Below the pieces are notes generated by a model that searched no databases, was not told the origin of the DNA, and saw only the letters and a list, made by a program, of their open reading frames with translations. A program made the translations under genes and the position numbers. From a virus, in IMG/VR virus record IMGVR_UViG_3300007515_000043, positions 1 through 22,228 of that record: a DNA stretch of 22,228 nucleotides. The stretch is one strand, 5' to 3'. This document shows positions 5,266 to 15,445 of the stretch, one piece after another (positions within the stretch are counted from its first letter, which is position 1; each line of letters starts with the position of its first letter).

Positions 5266-5488
5266 GCCCTTTAACTTTTAAAGTAAATATGTTTCCATCA
5301 CTTTCATAATAAGGTTTTCTTGACATGCCATATTTAATTGCTACTCTAAAGACATGGATAATATCCATATCTAAAAATTCTCTATACTCTTTCCTGCTTT
5401 CAGACCAATACTTATGTTCTTCATACATATCAGAAGGTATAGTAATACCTATTGCTTTTATTATATTTAATACTGTTTCTACTCTCAT
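5243..5488 (-). CDS. Hypothetical 81-aa protein
   Basis: 81 aa, no recognised domain; middle part rich in Tyr and charged residues (EEHKYWSESRKEYREF). The ATG at 5486-5488 has GAGGG upstream and overlaps the end of the GP88-like gene by four bases; its stop overlaps the next start (ATGA). Part of a continuous coupled series. Confidence 0.75.
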   Translation of the reverse strand: MRVETVLNIIKAIGITIPSDMYEEHKYWSESRKEYREFLDMDIIHVFRVAIKYGMSRKPYYESDGNIFTLKVKGLDKREPI

Positions 5489-6219
5489 GTTGCCCTCGTT
5501 TCTATTATATTTATATTGTTATCAATTACAAAGCCTGAATAATCTTTCTTGCCTTTGCCCTTTGCGACAAGTCCAACCACCACTTGAGTTTCATCAAGAA
5601 ATCTCATATCATGTTTGTCCCCATCAATTACCCTCAATCCTTTAAAGACTTTAGGTAGAACATCACGAAAGACTACTGCAATATTGTTTGATACTTTGTC
5701 AAACAGCGTAGCATACTTATCATTAGCTTCGGAATAACTCCAAGTCAAATGATAATTTGGTATGTGTCCTACCTTCCTTGTTGGTATTTTTGTGTAATCA
5801 TAAAACTGTATTTGTGGAAACAACTCAAACATATTTTTGCCCTCAACCTTAATATATTCCCATTGAATATCGCTTGTGCCATTGAGCCTTAAGGCAGGTT
5901 TTTTATCCAACCTAATACACTCCCTCAAAAAAGTATTTGCGTCCTTTACAAGCAACCTCATGAACTCCTGTTGGTCATTTAAGAAGAGTAGAGATTTTCT
6001 AATTCTTGCCTGTTGCACATTAGAAAATATACCCATACCTGCTGTGTTCAAACACGCTTCATTACACTTTGCAATTTTTGCAAAAGGGCATAAGGTATTC
6101 TTGCCGTCTGCTAAATCATCAGGAGCAAGATACATAATCCTACTAAAATATTTGTCCTGTATCTTATTGCTCTTGTCAATCTTGGTACTACCTGCTGATA
6201 GTAAATTATAGTGTGGCAT
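5485..6219 (-). CDS. GP88-like phage protein with conserved cysteines, 244 aa
   Basis: Matches a protein found in many unrelated phages (GP88-type family, function not established). Seen: LSAGSTKIDK, ILYLAPDDL-like MYLAPDDLADG, three cysteines in a C-x7-C-x3-C pattern (C44, C52, C56) followed by NTAGMG, then SNVQQARIRK, RLNGTSDIQW (111-120), QFYDYTK (138-144) and TWSYSE. The cysteine trio and the strand motifs ending RLNGTSD and FYDYTK are reminiscent of a metal- or Fe-S-dependent barrel enzyme; that is inference. A GGGGAG site lies ten bases before the ATG. It is the largest of the small early genes. Confidence 0.82.
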   Translation of the reverse strand: MPHYNLLSAGSTKIDKSNKIQDKYFSRIMYLAPDDLADGKNTLCPFAKIAKCNEACLNTAGMGIFSNVQQARIRKSLLFLNDQQEFMRLLVKDANTFLRECIRLDKKPALRLNGTSDIQWEYIKVEGKNMFELFPQIQFYDYTKIPTRKVGHIPNYHLTWSYSEANDKYATLFDKVSNNIAVVFRDVLPKVFKGLRVIDGDKHDMRFLDETQVVVGLVAKGKGKKDYSGFVIDNNINIIETRAT

Positions 6220-9518: not shown

Positions 9519-9575
9519 ACACTATGCCACAAGGCAAAGCCGAAGTCAACCCCAAGTTATCTAAAAAAATAAAAT
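9519..9575. repeat. Promoter-bearing direct repeat, copy A
   Basis: An imperfect copy of 10188-10244. Shared blocks include ACTATGCCACAA, CGAAGTCAACC, and the run CAAGTTATCTAAAAAAATAA. The repeat covers the -10, spacer, -35 and an A/T-rich upstream segment of a leftward promoter. Confidence 0.85.
9521..9549 (-). promoter_or_regulatory. Leftward sigma-70-like promoter, repeat copy A
   Basis: TTGACT (9544-9549), 17 bases, CATAGT (9521-9526) with TGG immediately before it (extended -10). An A/T-rich stretch upstream could serve as an UP element. It sits between the 97-aa gene and the 141-aa gene and is duplicated at 10190-10218 with identical spacing. Confidence 0.72.
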
Positions 9576-9604
9576 TATTTATAAACCTTATATCTCCTTA
9601 AATA

Positions 9605-9900: not shown

Positions 9901-10131
9901 TTAGCCCTCCAAATAATCAAAGAGATTATCATTGATAGGTTCAGTGGTTTCAAAATCTCTACACCATTGAGCAATATCTAAATGATCTCTCTCATCTATG
10001 TTATCATCTGACGAGTCATATAAATCATGTGGCTCATCTTGGTTAAGATTAACTTCCAAATCCTCGAAGTCGGTATAATAATCTAGCTCATCACTAGATT
10101 GTTTGTCGGTGTCGCTTATATCATATTGCAT
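9901..10131 (-). CDS. Very acidic 76-aa protein, candidate DNA mimic
   Basis: Of 76 residues, 26 are Asp or Glu and only three are Lys or Arg. Acidic runs include DFEDLEVNLNQDEPHDLYDS and SSDDNIDERDHLD. Such composition is typical of small phage DNA-mimic proteins such as T7 Ocr; no sequence relation to Ocr is claimed. The ATG at 10129-10131 has GGAGGG four bases upstream. A longer frame to 10179 would start at about the first bases of the predicted transcript and lacks a ribosome site. It is the first gene after the promoter at 10190-10218, so it is probably expressed early. Confidence 0.75.
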   Translation of the reverse strand: MQYDISDTDKQSSDELDYYTDFEDLEVNLNQDEPHDLYDSSDDNIDERDHLDIAQWCRDFETTEPINDNLFDYLEG

Positions 10132-10187
10132 AATGCCCTCCAAAAAATATATAAGGTTTCCACAATCGGCAAGTGCCAATCGCTTTT

Positions 10188-10244
10188 AAACTATGCCACA
10201 ACCAAATCCCGAAGTCAACCTCAAGTTATCTAAAAAAATAAAAT
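10188..10244. repeat. Promoter-bearing direct repeat, copy B
   Basis: Partner of 9519-9575, same orientation, about 670 bases away. Differences are concentrated in the spacer between the -35 and -10; the -35, the -10 and the upstream A-rich block are conserved. Confidence 0.85.
10190..10218 (-). promoter_or_regulatory. Leftward sigma-70-like promoter, repeat copy B
   Basis: TTGACT (10213-10218), 17 bases, CATAGT (10190-10195) preceded by TGG. The predicted start near 10183 gives a leader of about 50 bases to the acidic 76-aa gene. It is the first leftward promoter after the terminator at 10577-10614. Confidence 0.74.
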
Positions 10245-10320
10245 AATTAAATAATTTATTAATAAAATAAATCACTTTATATCTTTTGTTTATAATATAT
10301 TATCAACATAAATTATAGAG

Positions 10321-10401
10321 TTCACATAAATGACACATAAATGTCACATAACTGACACAATATGTTGCAGAATTGACACAATTTGTTACATGATTGTCAC
10401 A
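10321..10401. repeat. Eight helically phased TGWCACA-like heptamers
   Basis: Heptamers at 10321 (TTCACAT), 10331 (TGACACA), 10342 (TGTCACA), 10353 (TGACACA), 10363 (TGTTGCA), 10374 (TGACACA), 10384 (TGTTACA) and 10395 (TGTCACA), all in the same direction. Steps are 10, 11, 11, 10, 11, 10 and 11 bases, about one DNA turn each. This would place eight sites on one face of the helix: a candidate operator or origin iteron array. Confidence 0.78.
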
Positions 10402-10493
10402 TAAAATATAAAATCTCCTTCAACCAATCGCCATATTTTATTGTGGCAATTAAAATATTTTATTTTAATTTCCTTAATTTAAAATAGAATAGG

Positions 10494-10576: not shown

Positions 10577-10614
10577 AAAAAAAAACTCCCGAGCCTGTCG
10601 AAGACTCGGAAGTT
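10577..10614 (-). terminator. Strong intrinsic terminator after the 141-aa gene
   Basis: A 10-bp stem (10584-10593 with 10605-10614, including one G-U pair and a CCGAG/CTCGG core), an 11-base loop, then seven T beyond the stem on the leftward strand. It lies 20 bases after the stop of the 141-aa gene. In the rightward direction only TTTT follows, so it is mainly a leftward terminator. It isolates the two-gene unit from the early operon. Confidence 0.9.
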
Positions 10615-10634
10615 TTGAAAAATTCGATAAAAAA

Positions 10635-11756: not shown

Positions 11757-11833
11757 ACATAGGAAGAGTTCATGGTCTCCTGCGTCTGTTAAGTCCTGTA
11801 GGGTACGCAGGAGACCATGCCCTCTACCTATGT
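11757..11833. repeat. Long end hairpin of right arm
   Basis: CATGGTCTCCTGCGT (11771-11785) and ACGCAGGAGACCATG (11805-11819) form a perfect 15-bp stem with a 19-base loop. An outer AGAG/CTCT and ACATAGG/CCTATGT extend it. It is the counterpart of the left-arm end hairpin, with a GC-richer inner stem. Confidence 0.85.
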
Positions 11834-11862
11834 ATCTATGGCATGGTTATACATTTTAGACT

Positions 11863-13558: not shown

Positions 13559-13824
13559 TATTTAAACCCGATAACTATATAAGACGAACTTCTTCAACTA
13601 TACCTTTTGGTTATGAGTTAGATAATAATTTTGAAGGCTATTTAAAACCAAACGAAACACAGATACAAGTACTAGAAGAAGTAGCTCAAGCAGTCTTTCA
13701 TGGTGAAATTAGCCTAGGAATAGGTGTTGATTGGTTAGGAGCTGAAACAGGTAAGAGCATGTCAAGACCCGGATTAAAGAAATACGTAGATAAGAAATAT
13801 GGAAGATTGGGAAAAAAATCCTAA
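13555..13824 (+). CDS. 89-aa putative HTH protein upstream of TerL
   Basis: After FGYELDNNFEGYLKPNETQ comes a helical block, VLEEVAQAVFHGEISLGIG then VDWLGAETGKSMSRPGLKK. This resembles the linker and helix-turn-helix region found next to serine recombinase-like or terminase-associated DNA-binding proteins (a repeated-helix SLxxxxxWLxxxTG pattern). No recombinase catalytic domain is present, so a DNA-binding helper for packaging is the likelier reading. It overlaps TerL by 26 bases. Confidence 0.68.
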   Translation: MIFKPDNYIRRTSSTIPFGYELDNNFEGYLKPNETQIQVLEEVAQAVFHGEISLGIGVDWLGAETGKSMSRPGLKKYVDKKYGRLGKKS

Positions 13825-15445
13825 AAAATACTTGACAAACTCTTCAGGGGAGTATATACTAAAGAGAGATGGAACCCCTAAGAAAAAATCAGGGAGACCG
13901 AAAGATTCAGAACTTTCAGGAATACAGTTAGCTTTAAGAGCTAAAAATAAGTTAACTAAAAAGAATAAGAAAGTTAAAAAGCTAACAAGAAGTTTAGCAC
14001 GAGTTAAGAAAGAACTCGATACTGAAGAAAAAGTTTTAACATCTAATGTTATTACTGAATCAGAAAAGAAAACACTTCCTGATCCAATACAAAAACATTT
14101 AGATGAAACAGGTTCTCATGTGGCTTTTATGCCAAACAACGGACCTCAAACAGATTTTTTAGCTGCATCCGAGAAAGATGTTCTTTATGGTGGAGCAGCC
14201 GGTGGTGGAAAAAGCTTTGCAATGCTTATAGATCCACTAAGGTATTGTCATTTTTCAGAGCACAGAGCTTTGATATTAAGAAGGTCAATGCCTGAATTAA
14301 GAGAACTTATAGATAAGTCTCGAGAATTATATCCGGTAGCTTTTAAAGGTGCTAAGTTCCGTGAGGTTGAAAAACTTTGGAACTTTCCAAGTGGAGCTAA
14401 AATAGAATTTGGATTCCTTGAACGAGATGCAGATGTATATCGTTATCAAGGACAAGCGTACAGTTGGATAGGTTTTGATGAGATAACTCACCTTCCTACA
14501 GAATTTGGTTGGAATTACTTAGCCTCTAGGTTAAGAACTACTAACCCTGAGTTACCAACTTATTTAAGATGTACAGCTAACCCGGGTGGTGTAGGAGCAC
14601 AATGGGTTAAAAAAAGATATGTCGATCCAACAAAAGAAAATAAAACTTTTAAAGGTACAGACGGTCTAACAAGAAAGTTTATACCAGCAAGATTACAGGA
14701 CAATCCTTTTCTTGCTGAAGATGGTGAATATGAAAGGATGTTGCTTTCGTTACCTCCGGTACAAAGAAAACAATTACTAGAAGGTAATTGGGATGTAGCA
14801 GAAGGAGCAGCATTCGCAGAATTTGATATGTCAATCCATGTTATACCACCTTTTGATTTACCCTCATGGTGGGAAAGGTTAAAAGGAATTGACTATGGAT
14901 ATGCTTCAGAAAGTTGCTGTCTGTGGGGAGTAGTAGACCCTGAAGATAAGACCCTCATTATATATAGAGAATTATACAGAAAAGGTCTTACAGGCGAAGC
15001 TCTCGGCGACACTTTAACAAATATGGAAGCTGACGAAATTAAATCCATAACTGGTGTATTAGATACATCAGCTTGGTCAAGGACTGGTTATACTGGTCCT
15101 ACTATTGGTGAGTTATTGATCCGAAAAGGTCATAAATTAAGACGAGCCGATAAAAATCGAGTAGCTGGTAAAGTTCAGATACACGAGTATTTAAGAAAGA
15201 ATACAGAAACAGGTAGACCTAGATTGCAGATTTTTAGTAATTGCGTTAATTTAATTAAAGAATTACAGGGTATCCCTATTTCTAAAACAAATCCGGAGGA
15301 TGTTGATACTCATTCTGCTGATCATGCATACGATGCATTAAGGTACATGATAATGAGTAGACCTAGACTAGACCATCCTAGGGATAGAATGTTAAGAATT
15401 AAACAGGATATATATCAACCTGTTGATTCAACGTTTGGATATTAA
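13799..15445 (+). CDS. terL: Terminase large subunit (TerL)
   Basis: The 548-aa packaging motor: an ATPase that drives DNA into the prohead and a nuclease that cuts the concatemer. Seen: a basic AT-hook-like opening (LKRDGTPKKKSGRPK, 21-35); a Lys-rich helix; Walker A GGAAGGGKS (131-139); Walker B WIGFDE (223-228); coupling motif TANPGG (259-264); and RNase H-fold nuclease acidic residues in GIDYGYA (D365), LDTSAW (D422) and SADHAYDAL (D508, D512). The protein is complete. The ATG at 13799 lies inside the previous gene; the ribosome site is weak. A near-consensus promoter is embedded at codons 12-21. Confidence 0.96.
   Translation: MEDWEKNPKKYLTNSSGEYILKRDGTPKKKSGRPKDSELSGIQLALRAKNKLTKKNKKVKKLTRSLARVKKELDTEEKVLTSNVITESEKKTLPDPIQKHLDETGSHVAFMPNNGPQTDFLAASEKDVLYGGAAGGGKSFAMLIDPLRYCHFSEHRALILRRSMPELRELIDKSRELYPVAFKGAKFREVEKLWNFPSGAKIEFGFLERDADVYRYQGQAYSWIGFDEITHLPTEFGWNYLASRLRTTNPELPTYLRCTANPGGVGAQWVKKRYVDPTKENKTFKGTDGLTRKFIPARLQDNPFLAEDGEYERMLLSLPPVQRKQLLEGNWDVAEGAAFAEFDMSIHVIPPFDLPSWWERLKGIDYGYASESCCLWGVVDPEDKTLIIYRELYRKGLTGEALGDTLTNMEADEIKSITGVLDTSAWSRTGYTGPTIGELLIRKGHKLRRADKNRVAGKVQIHEYLRKNTETGRPRLQIFSNCVNLIKELQGIPISKTNPEDVDTHSADHAYDALRYMIMSRPRLDHPRDRMLRIKQDIYQPVDSTFGY
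13832..13860 (+). promoter_or_regulatory. Near-consensus promoter inside the start of TerL
   Basis: TTGACA (13832-13837), a 17-base spacer, TATACT (13855-13860). One mismatch in all. It could give a second rightward transcript for portal and capsid genes; TerL itself would not be translated from it unless an internal start is used. Confidence 0.55.

Follow-up and report, generated by a model that had tools for sequence, protein, structure and literature searches.

At the locus described here, eight direct heptamers occupy an intergenic position in a viral DNA fragment of 22,228 bases (the whole stretch analysed, hereafter the window), between the conserved gene c6 on the left and the gene c26 on the right. 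The features of the locus and of its surroundings are collected in Table 1.

Table 1. Features of the array locus and neighbouring DNA, in window coordinates
Feature	Position	Strand	Remarks
GP88-family protein gene	5485-6219	-	early block; PF17338, E 1e-41
Second promoter copy	9549-9521	-	near-identical to the early promoter
c6, 97 aa	9605-9898	-	conserved left neighbour; in 21/24 compared loci
77-aa very acidic protein gene	9901-10134	-	first gene past the early promoter; no family match
Leftward early promoter	10190-10218	-	TTGACT-17-CATAGT, extended -10 (TG ahead of -10)
A/T-richest 80 bp of the window (92.5%)	10223-10302		candidate DNA unwinding element
TTATCAACA	10300-10308	+	DnaA box with one mismatch, on the array's strand
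Array of eight direct TGWCACA-like heptamers	10320-10401	+	10- or 11-bp steps; 9-mer class AWTGTYACA
CTCCTTCAACCAATCGCC	10417-10434	+	degenerate copy of a CCCTCAAC-type G/C-rich element, which follows the array in relatives
Intrinsic terminator of gene 11060-10635	10582-10616	-	15 pairs, T tail
c26, 141 aa	10635-11060	-	right neighbour, all-helical model; c9 instead in most relatives
CCATGCCCTCTACC...TATGGCATGGTTA element	11814-11849		conserved, with inverted ends; precedes the small terminase gene
TerL gene	13799-15445		identity 64-66% to HTVC115P, HTVC103P, HTVC104P; 49% to HMO-2011

The early block reads leftward and includes genes for a primase/helicase (phrog_239) and a gp2.5-like SSB (phrog_112). 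The gene layout is like that of HTVC115P: the early genes lie on one strand, and the terminase and structural genes are divergent. The closest TerL proteins among cultured phages are those of the Pelagibacter phages HTVC115P, HTVC103P and HTVC104P. Judged by TerL, primase/helicase and gene layout, in which it resembles the HMO-2011-type phages (PMC9038755), the window is assigned to an HMO-2011-type podovirus, and its host, going by the nearest cultured phages, is probably SAR11. Phages of this type are reported to be dominant and widespread in the ocean (PMC9038755); a term search of that article found no account of an origin or array. The acidic 77-aa protein could be a DNA mimic or have a role in host takeover. 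The CCATGCCCTCTACC...TATGGCATGGTTA element, a possible terminator or packaging site, is also present in two relatives (G003 and G004), about 1.5 kb to the right of the array.

The phased array and its flanks

On the + strand, the array units are as follows: GTTCACA (10320), TGACACA (10331), TGTCACA (10342), TGACACA (10353), TGTTGCA (10363), TGACACA (10374), TGTTACA (10384) and TGTCACA (10395, ending at 10401). The unit-to-unit steps are 11, 11, 11, 10, 11, 10 and 11 bp (mean 10.7). TGWCACA is matched exactly by five of the eight units, at 6/7 positions by TGTTACA and at 5/7 by GTTCACA and TGTTGCA; the + strand of the entire window contains six exact TGWCACA sites, five of them inside the array. 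With a 10/11-bp step the array obtained a chain score of 19, against a maximum of 6 when the whole 22 kb was shuffled (100 first-order, 200 second-order) and of 7 when the local A/T-rich region was shuffled (3000 second-order), and chain scores for other step pairs (8/9 to 16/17) were 10 or less. The eight same-orientation heptamers every 10 or 11 bases reported by the first-pass annotation, an earlier reading of the same DNA, were thus confirmed, with the start at 10320. No match was obtained for the array DNA in cultured phages, nor for the array locus in Rfam, where structured RNA was sought.

The flanking elements named by the first-pass annotation were also recovered. The A/T-rich DNA that it placed beside the array is the A/T-richest 80 bp of the window and abuts the array, ending 18 bp ahead of it. 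Two properties of iteron-type origins are therefore present: regularly spaced direct repeats (eight units, far above shuffles) and an adjacent A/T-rich element, which by its composition is a candidate for unwinding. The early promoter that it had put at 10190-10218 was found there and reads leftward. Promoter-like sites are not enriched as a class in the window (12 found, 10.1 expected), so that this call is based on the near-identical second copy. The two promoters belong to near-identical leftward cassettes at 9521-9580 and 10190-10250, whose + strand reads CTATGCCACAA...GAAGTCAACC.CAAGTTATCTAAAAAAATAAAA; in each, A-rich DNA lies upstream of the -35. To the right of the array, the terminator annotated at 10577-10614 was found at 10616-10582, reading leftward; terminators number four in the window (0.7 expected).

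The near-consensus TTATCAACA at 10300 is the site closest to a DnaA box in the window and has aligned copies in L147 and L151. Near-consensus DnaA boxes were found around arrays of the window type in 6/25 regions against a background of 15%, without clear enrichment, and the proposal that every such array retains a neighbouring DnaA box is unsupported. The G/C-rich element lies 97 bp from the array start in the window and 94-113 bp from it in four large relatives. A CCCTCAAC...(C/G)CC element follows the array in L213, L216, L229, L124, L253 and L266, whatever the unit class or orientation, and in many relatives elements of this type occur as two copies about 25-45 bp apart, alike within a phage and different between phages.

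Arrays in related and unrelated phages

Relatives, all uncultured, were collected with a TerL scan (80 loci) and with c9 and c26 scans (58 loci, on contigs partly shared). The slot is intergenic, adjoins a leftward early promoter and lies 3.1-4.6 kb upstream of terL. A 10/11-bp phased array is present there in many of the TerL loci that extend far enough upstream; in the relatives the slot is nearly always occupied by such an array, and the unit varies. Across the 24 compared loci the left neighbour c6 is conserved, and the right neighbour is usually c26 (the window type) or c9. ACA-to-ACA distances, pooled over 50 regions, peak at 11, 20-22, 31-33 and 41-44 bp and fall well under expectation at half-turns; an extra peak at 9 arises where TTATCCACA is followed by TTATACATA, the ACA being two bases off within one 11-bp step. 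Conservation of the spacing, on which the first-pass annotation had let its reading depend, was thus observed at the slot. No array was scored in L236 and L250, and none was present in the stretches examined of the cultured relatives HTVC115P, 103P, 104P and 033P.

With hand-seeded models, 163 units at 24 loci were assigned to class D (TTATNCAYA, the DnaA box; single orientation throughout) and 155 units to class T (AWTGTYACA, the window type; either orientation), counts that do not represent independent events since the loci are related. The motif search in relatives proposed earlier recovered phased arrays at the same slot, which in about half of the relatives are made of tandem consensus DnaA boxes (TTATCCACA/TTATACATA). 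In these class D arrays, consensus 9-mers are separated by 1-2 bp, and perfect boxes stand among weaker ones. Class G units (AAAGGTACA) rarely make up whole arrays and also occur at the ends of T arrays. Mixed arrays were found in L256 and L259 (a D block, then a T block), and reverse-orientation DnaA boxes lie near the T array in L196, L118 and L093. In L153 (2875-3005), about twelve AGGTACA units follow one another at an 11-bp step; because the spacers alternate between ATTA and GTTA, the repeat proper spans two turns, or 22 bp.

On a TerL tree the unit class follows descent (6 changes, 11.9 when shuffled), and the window falls within a T clade (98/96). L169 and L178 branch early with the particular outgroup chosen, and both have DnaA boxes, L178 together with T units; the root and the direction of unit change are unsure because the outgroup branch is long. 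Genes for primase/helicase, polymerase and SSB are common to D and T phages. It is tentatively suggested, at somewhat less than even odds, that one lineage may have kept its origin geometry while the site switched, by way of mixed intermediates, between boxes for host DnaA and units of the TGTCACA or AGGTACA kind.

The position of the arrays beside a promoter would also suit an early operator or enhancer. The protein that polymerises on it to activate or repress the 10218-10190 promoter would then be a regulator from phage or host, DnaA in a transcription-factor role, or a member of the OmpR/PhoB type. The window array is upstream of that promoter, a TTGAC-like -35 is seen by eye to the left in many relatives, and the direct 10-11-bp repeats fit OmpR/PhoB-type regulators, which bind direct half-sites at that spacing. 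However, the array is always near a leftward promoter but at a spacing to the -35 that, judged by eye, ranges between about 20 and 105 bp; the orientation of class T arrays flips while the promoter stays put; perfect DnaA boxes occupy the slot in half of the relatives; the window yielded no regulator gene; and SAR11 genomes are without such site pairs. An operator is therefore considered unlikely as the explanation of the array, and the two readings are not mutually exclusive, as a promoter can also be under the control of an origin.

GC skew was examined in four relatives of 51-57 kb, where it passes from about -0.2 to positive values around the 2-kb bin with the array. In three of the four, the cumulative minimum lies 197, 539 and 716 bp to the right of the array start, and, because the leftward early genes run about 0.9 kb past the array in these phages, the minimum precedes the divergence of transcription. 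Coding-strand GC3 skew is reversed in the right-hand gene c8 (-0.28, compared with +0.05 to +0.26 in left genes) and not in c9 (+0.07) or c26 (+0.16). The sign change was thus found at the array in the four large relatives; in the window itself the minimum (11918) is at the divergence, 1.6 kb from the array. Skew is confounded by divergent transcription and is supporting, not decisive, evidence for an origin.

In a pattern scan, phased arrays of TGTCACA were also detected in unrelated viral contigs, whose GC contents range from 25 to 63%. Several are located within replication genes or at their borders: a replication initiation protein gene (L035, eight units), a Phage_rep_org_N gene beside a DnaC-like loader (L019, seven units) and genes in L066 and L043; the L079 array is 9 bp off a replisome organizer gene and the L020 array is between primase and helicase genes. 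Temperate phages have iteron origins inside genes for replisome organizer or O-like initiators, and the arrays of L019, L035, L066, L043 and L079, which are inside or abut such genes, have the TGTCACA unit in the same phase; the window array differs in being intergenic, with no replisome organizer recognised. Iterons are likewise combined with A/T-rich DNA in lambda-type origins. Four named cultured phages (streptococcal, Roseburia and Paenibacillus) with related initiator genes have no TGTCACA array there.

Arrays of 3-4 TGTCACA units also lie beside tyrosine integrase genes in unrelated contigs (L097, L037, L031, L059, L022, L011, L038, L082), where they are perhaps integrase arm-type sites. 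By this likeness, the window array could be the arm-type sites of an attP region, and some HMO-2011-type subgroups do have an integrase (PMC9038755). Yet the integrase domain PF00589 is absent (E up to 1) from six large relatives of 42-57 kb, no integrase gene was identified in the 22-kb window fragment, the integrase-linked arrays are short, and DnaA-box arrays at the homologous place are unlike arm sites; attP is accordingly rated the most improbable of the readings.

Candidate binders and the origin reading

DnaA is encoded in 9/9 SAR11 genomes. A phage-encoded DnaA was rejected as the initiator, as no DnaA C-terminal domain is present in the six large relatives. Among the early genes of the window, no initiator gene was found with Pfam and PHROGs and no partition gene was identified, so that the centromere mentioned as an option in the first-pass annotation is unsupported. 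Known families gave no function for c6, c9 or c26. As a binder, c26 was rejected: its fair model (pLDDT 85) has no fold match, and the gene is absent from loci with the same unit type (L239 and L249 have c9, L147 and L151 neither). Used alone as a query, c26 found no relatives. The c9 model is of low confidence (pLDDT 57), with no family and no detectable similarity to c26, and neither c9 nor c6 had a tblastn match in cultured phages. Mimicry of the host oriC was rejected because 16 SAR11 genomes contain neither same-strand DnaA-box pairs up to 24 bp apart nor TGWCACA pairs at a 10/11-bp step. The SAR11 DNA upstream of hemE (L396-L402), a putative chromosomal origin, is conserved and noncoding, with scattered TTATTAACA, TTATTCACA and TTATCTACA sites. 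A reading as T7 primase sites was dropped by reasoning alone, D-type arrays being without such sites.

In E. coli oriC, weak DnaA sites form clusters with 2-bp gaps beside the unwinding element and are filled cooperatively from strong sites (PMC6070618). The arrays described here share the same-orientation 9-mers, the 2-bp gaps (11-bp step) and the adjacent A/T-rich DNA, and D-class relatives also share the mixture of perfect and weaker boxes. The window differs from oriC in being a phage locus with a single run of sites and with units that are not DnaA consensus: its units retain the box's YACA end, have TG in place of the box AT and differ in the first half. Consensus boxes (TTWTNCACA) are absent from the window array and present in the arrays of 24 relatives.

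Taken together, we favour the window array as the initiator-binding core of a phage replication origin (probability about 0.6), because arrays of the same phase recur at the slot, many of them made of DnaA boxes, the skew changes sign, and TGTCACA arrays occur in initiator genes of unrelated phages. The choice between origin and early operator left by the first-pass annotation thus tips towards the origin. Points counted against an origin are that no phage initiator was identified, that T arrays occur in either orientation with the A/T-rich side unchanged, that short TGTCACA arrays lie beside integrases elsewhere, and that the stretches checked in cultured relatives have none.

At such an origin, the initiator would assemble cooperatively along one helix face into a directional filament, which would strain and open the adjoining A/T-rich DNA; the phage primase-helicase, SSB and polymerase would then load at the opened DNA. 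DnaA is likely the binder of the arrays in DnaA-box relatives, and host DnaA would be the class D initiator, given the consensus boxes, the oriC-like geometry, the replication genes common to D and T phages and the failure to find a phage DnaA. In class T phages, an initiator filament of the same geometry would form. The window lineage may have kept the architecture with an AWTGTYACA site, which would be either a weak site for DnaA or the site of a different protein; that DnaA itself binds the window array is possible but doubtful on the sequence of its units.

The array could alternatively be a sink, similar to datA of E. coli, in which DnaA of the host or some other host protein is sequestered early in infection so that host replication halts. 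Consensus DnaA-box clusters do occupy an early-region intergenic slot in D-class relatives, but a sink has no need for strict helical phase, a single orientation, A/T-rich adjacency or a GC-skew switch, and the window units differ from the DnaA consensus. This role is regarded as improbable.

Implications for phage replication

In the open-access literature searched, no published description of this array and no description of the replication start of HMO-2011-type phages were found, and a search on the motif returned nothing relevant. Phased initiator arrays are of a known kind; what is new is that the unit is replaced while place and phase stay fixed. The candidate origin exists in DnaA-box, box-free and mixed versions, which makes dependence on host DnaA and initiator switching directly testable, and it offers a marker for locating origins in uncultured phages. 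If one lineage did keep its origin geometry through such switches of site, these phages would form a natural series of origins that changed their initiator, or the specificity of their initiator, while the geometry was retained.
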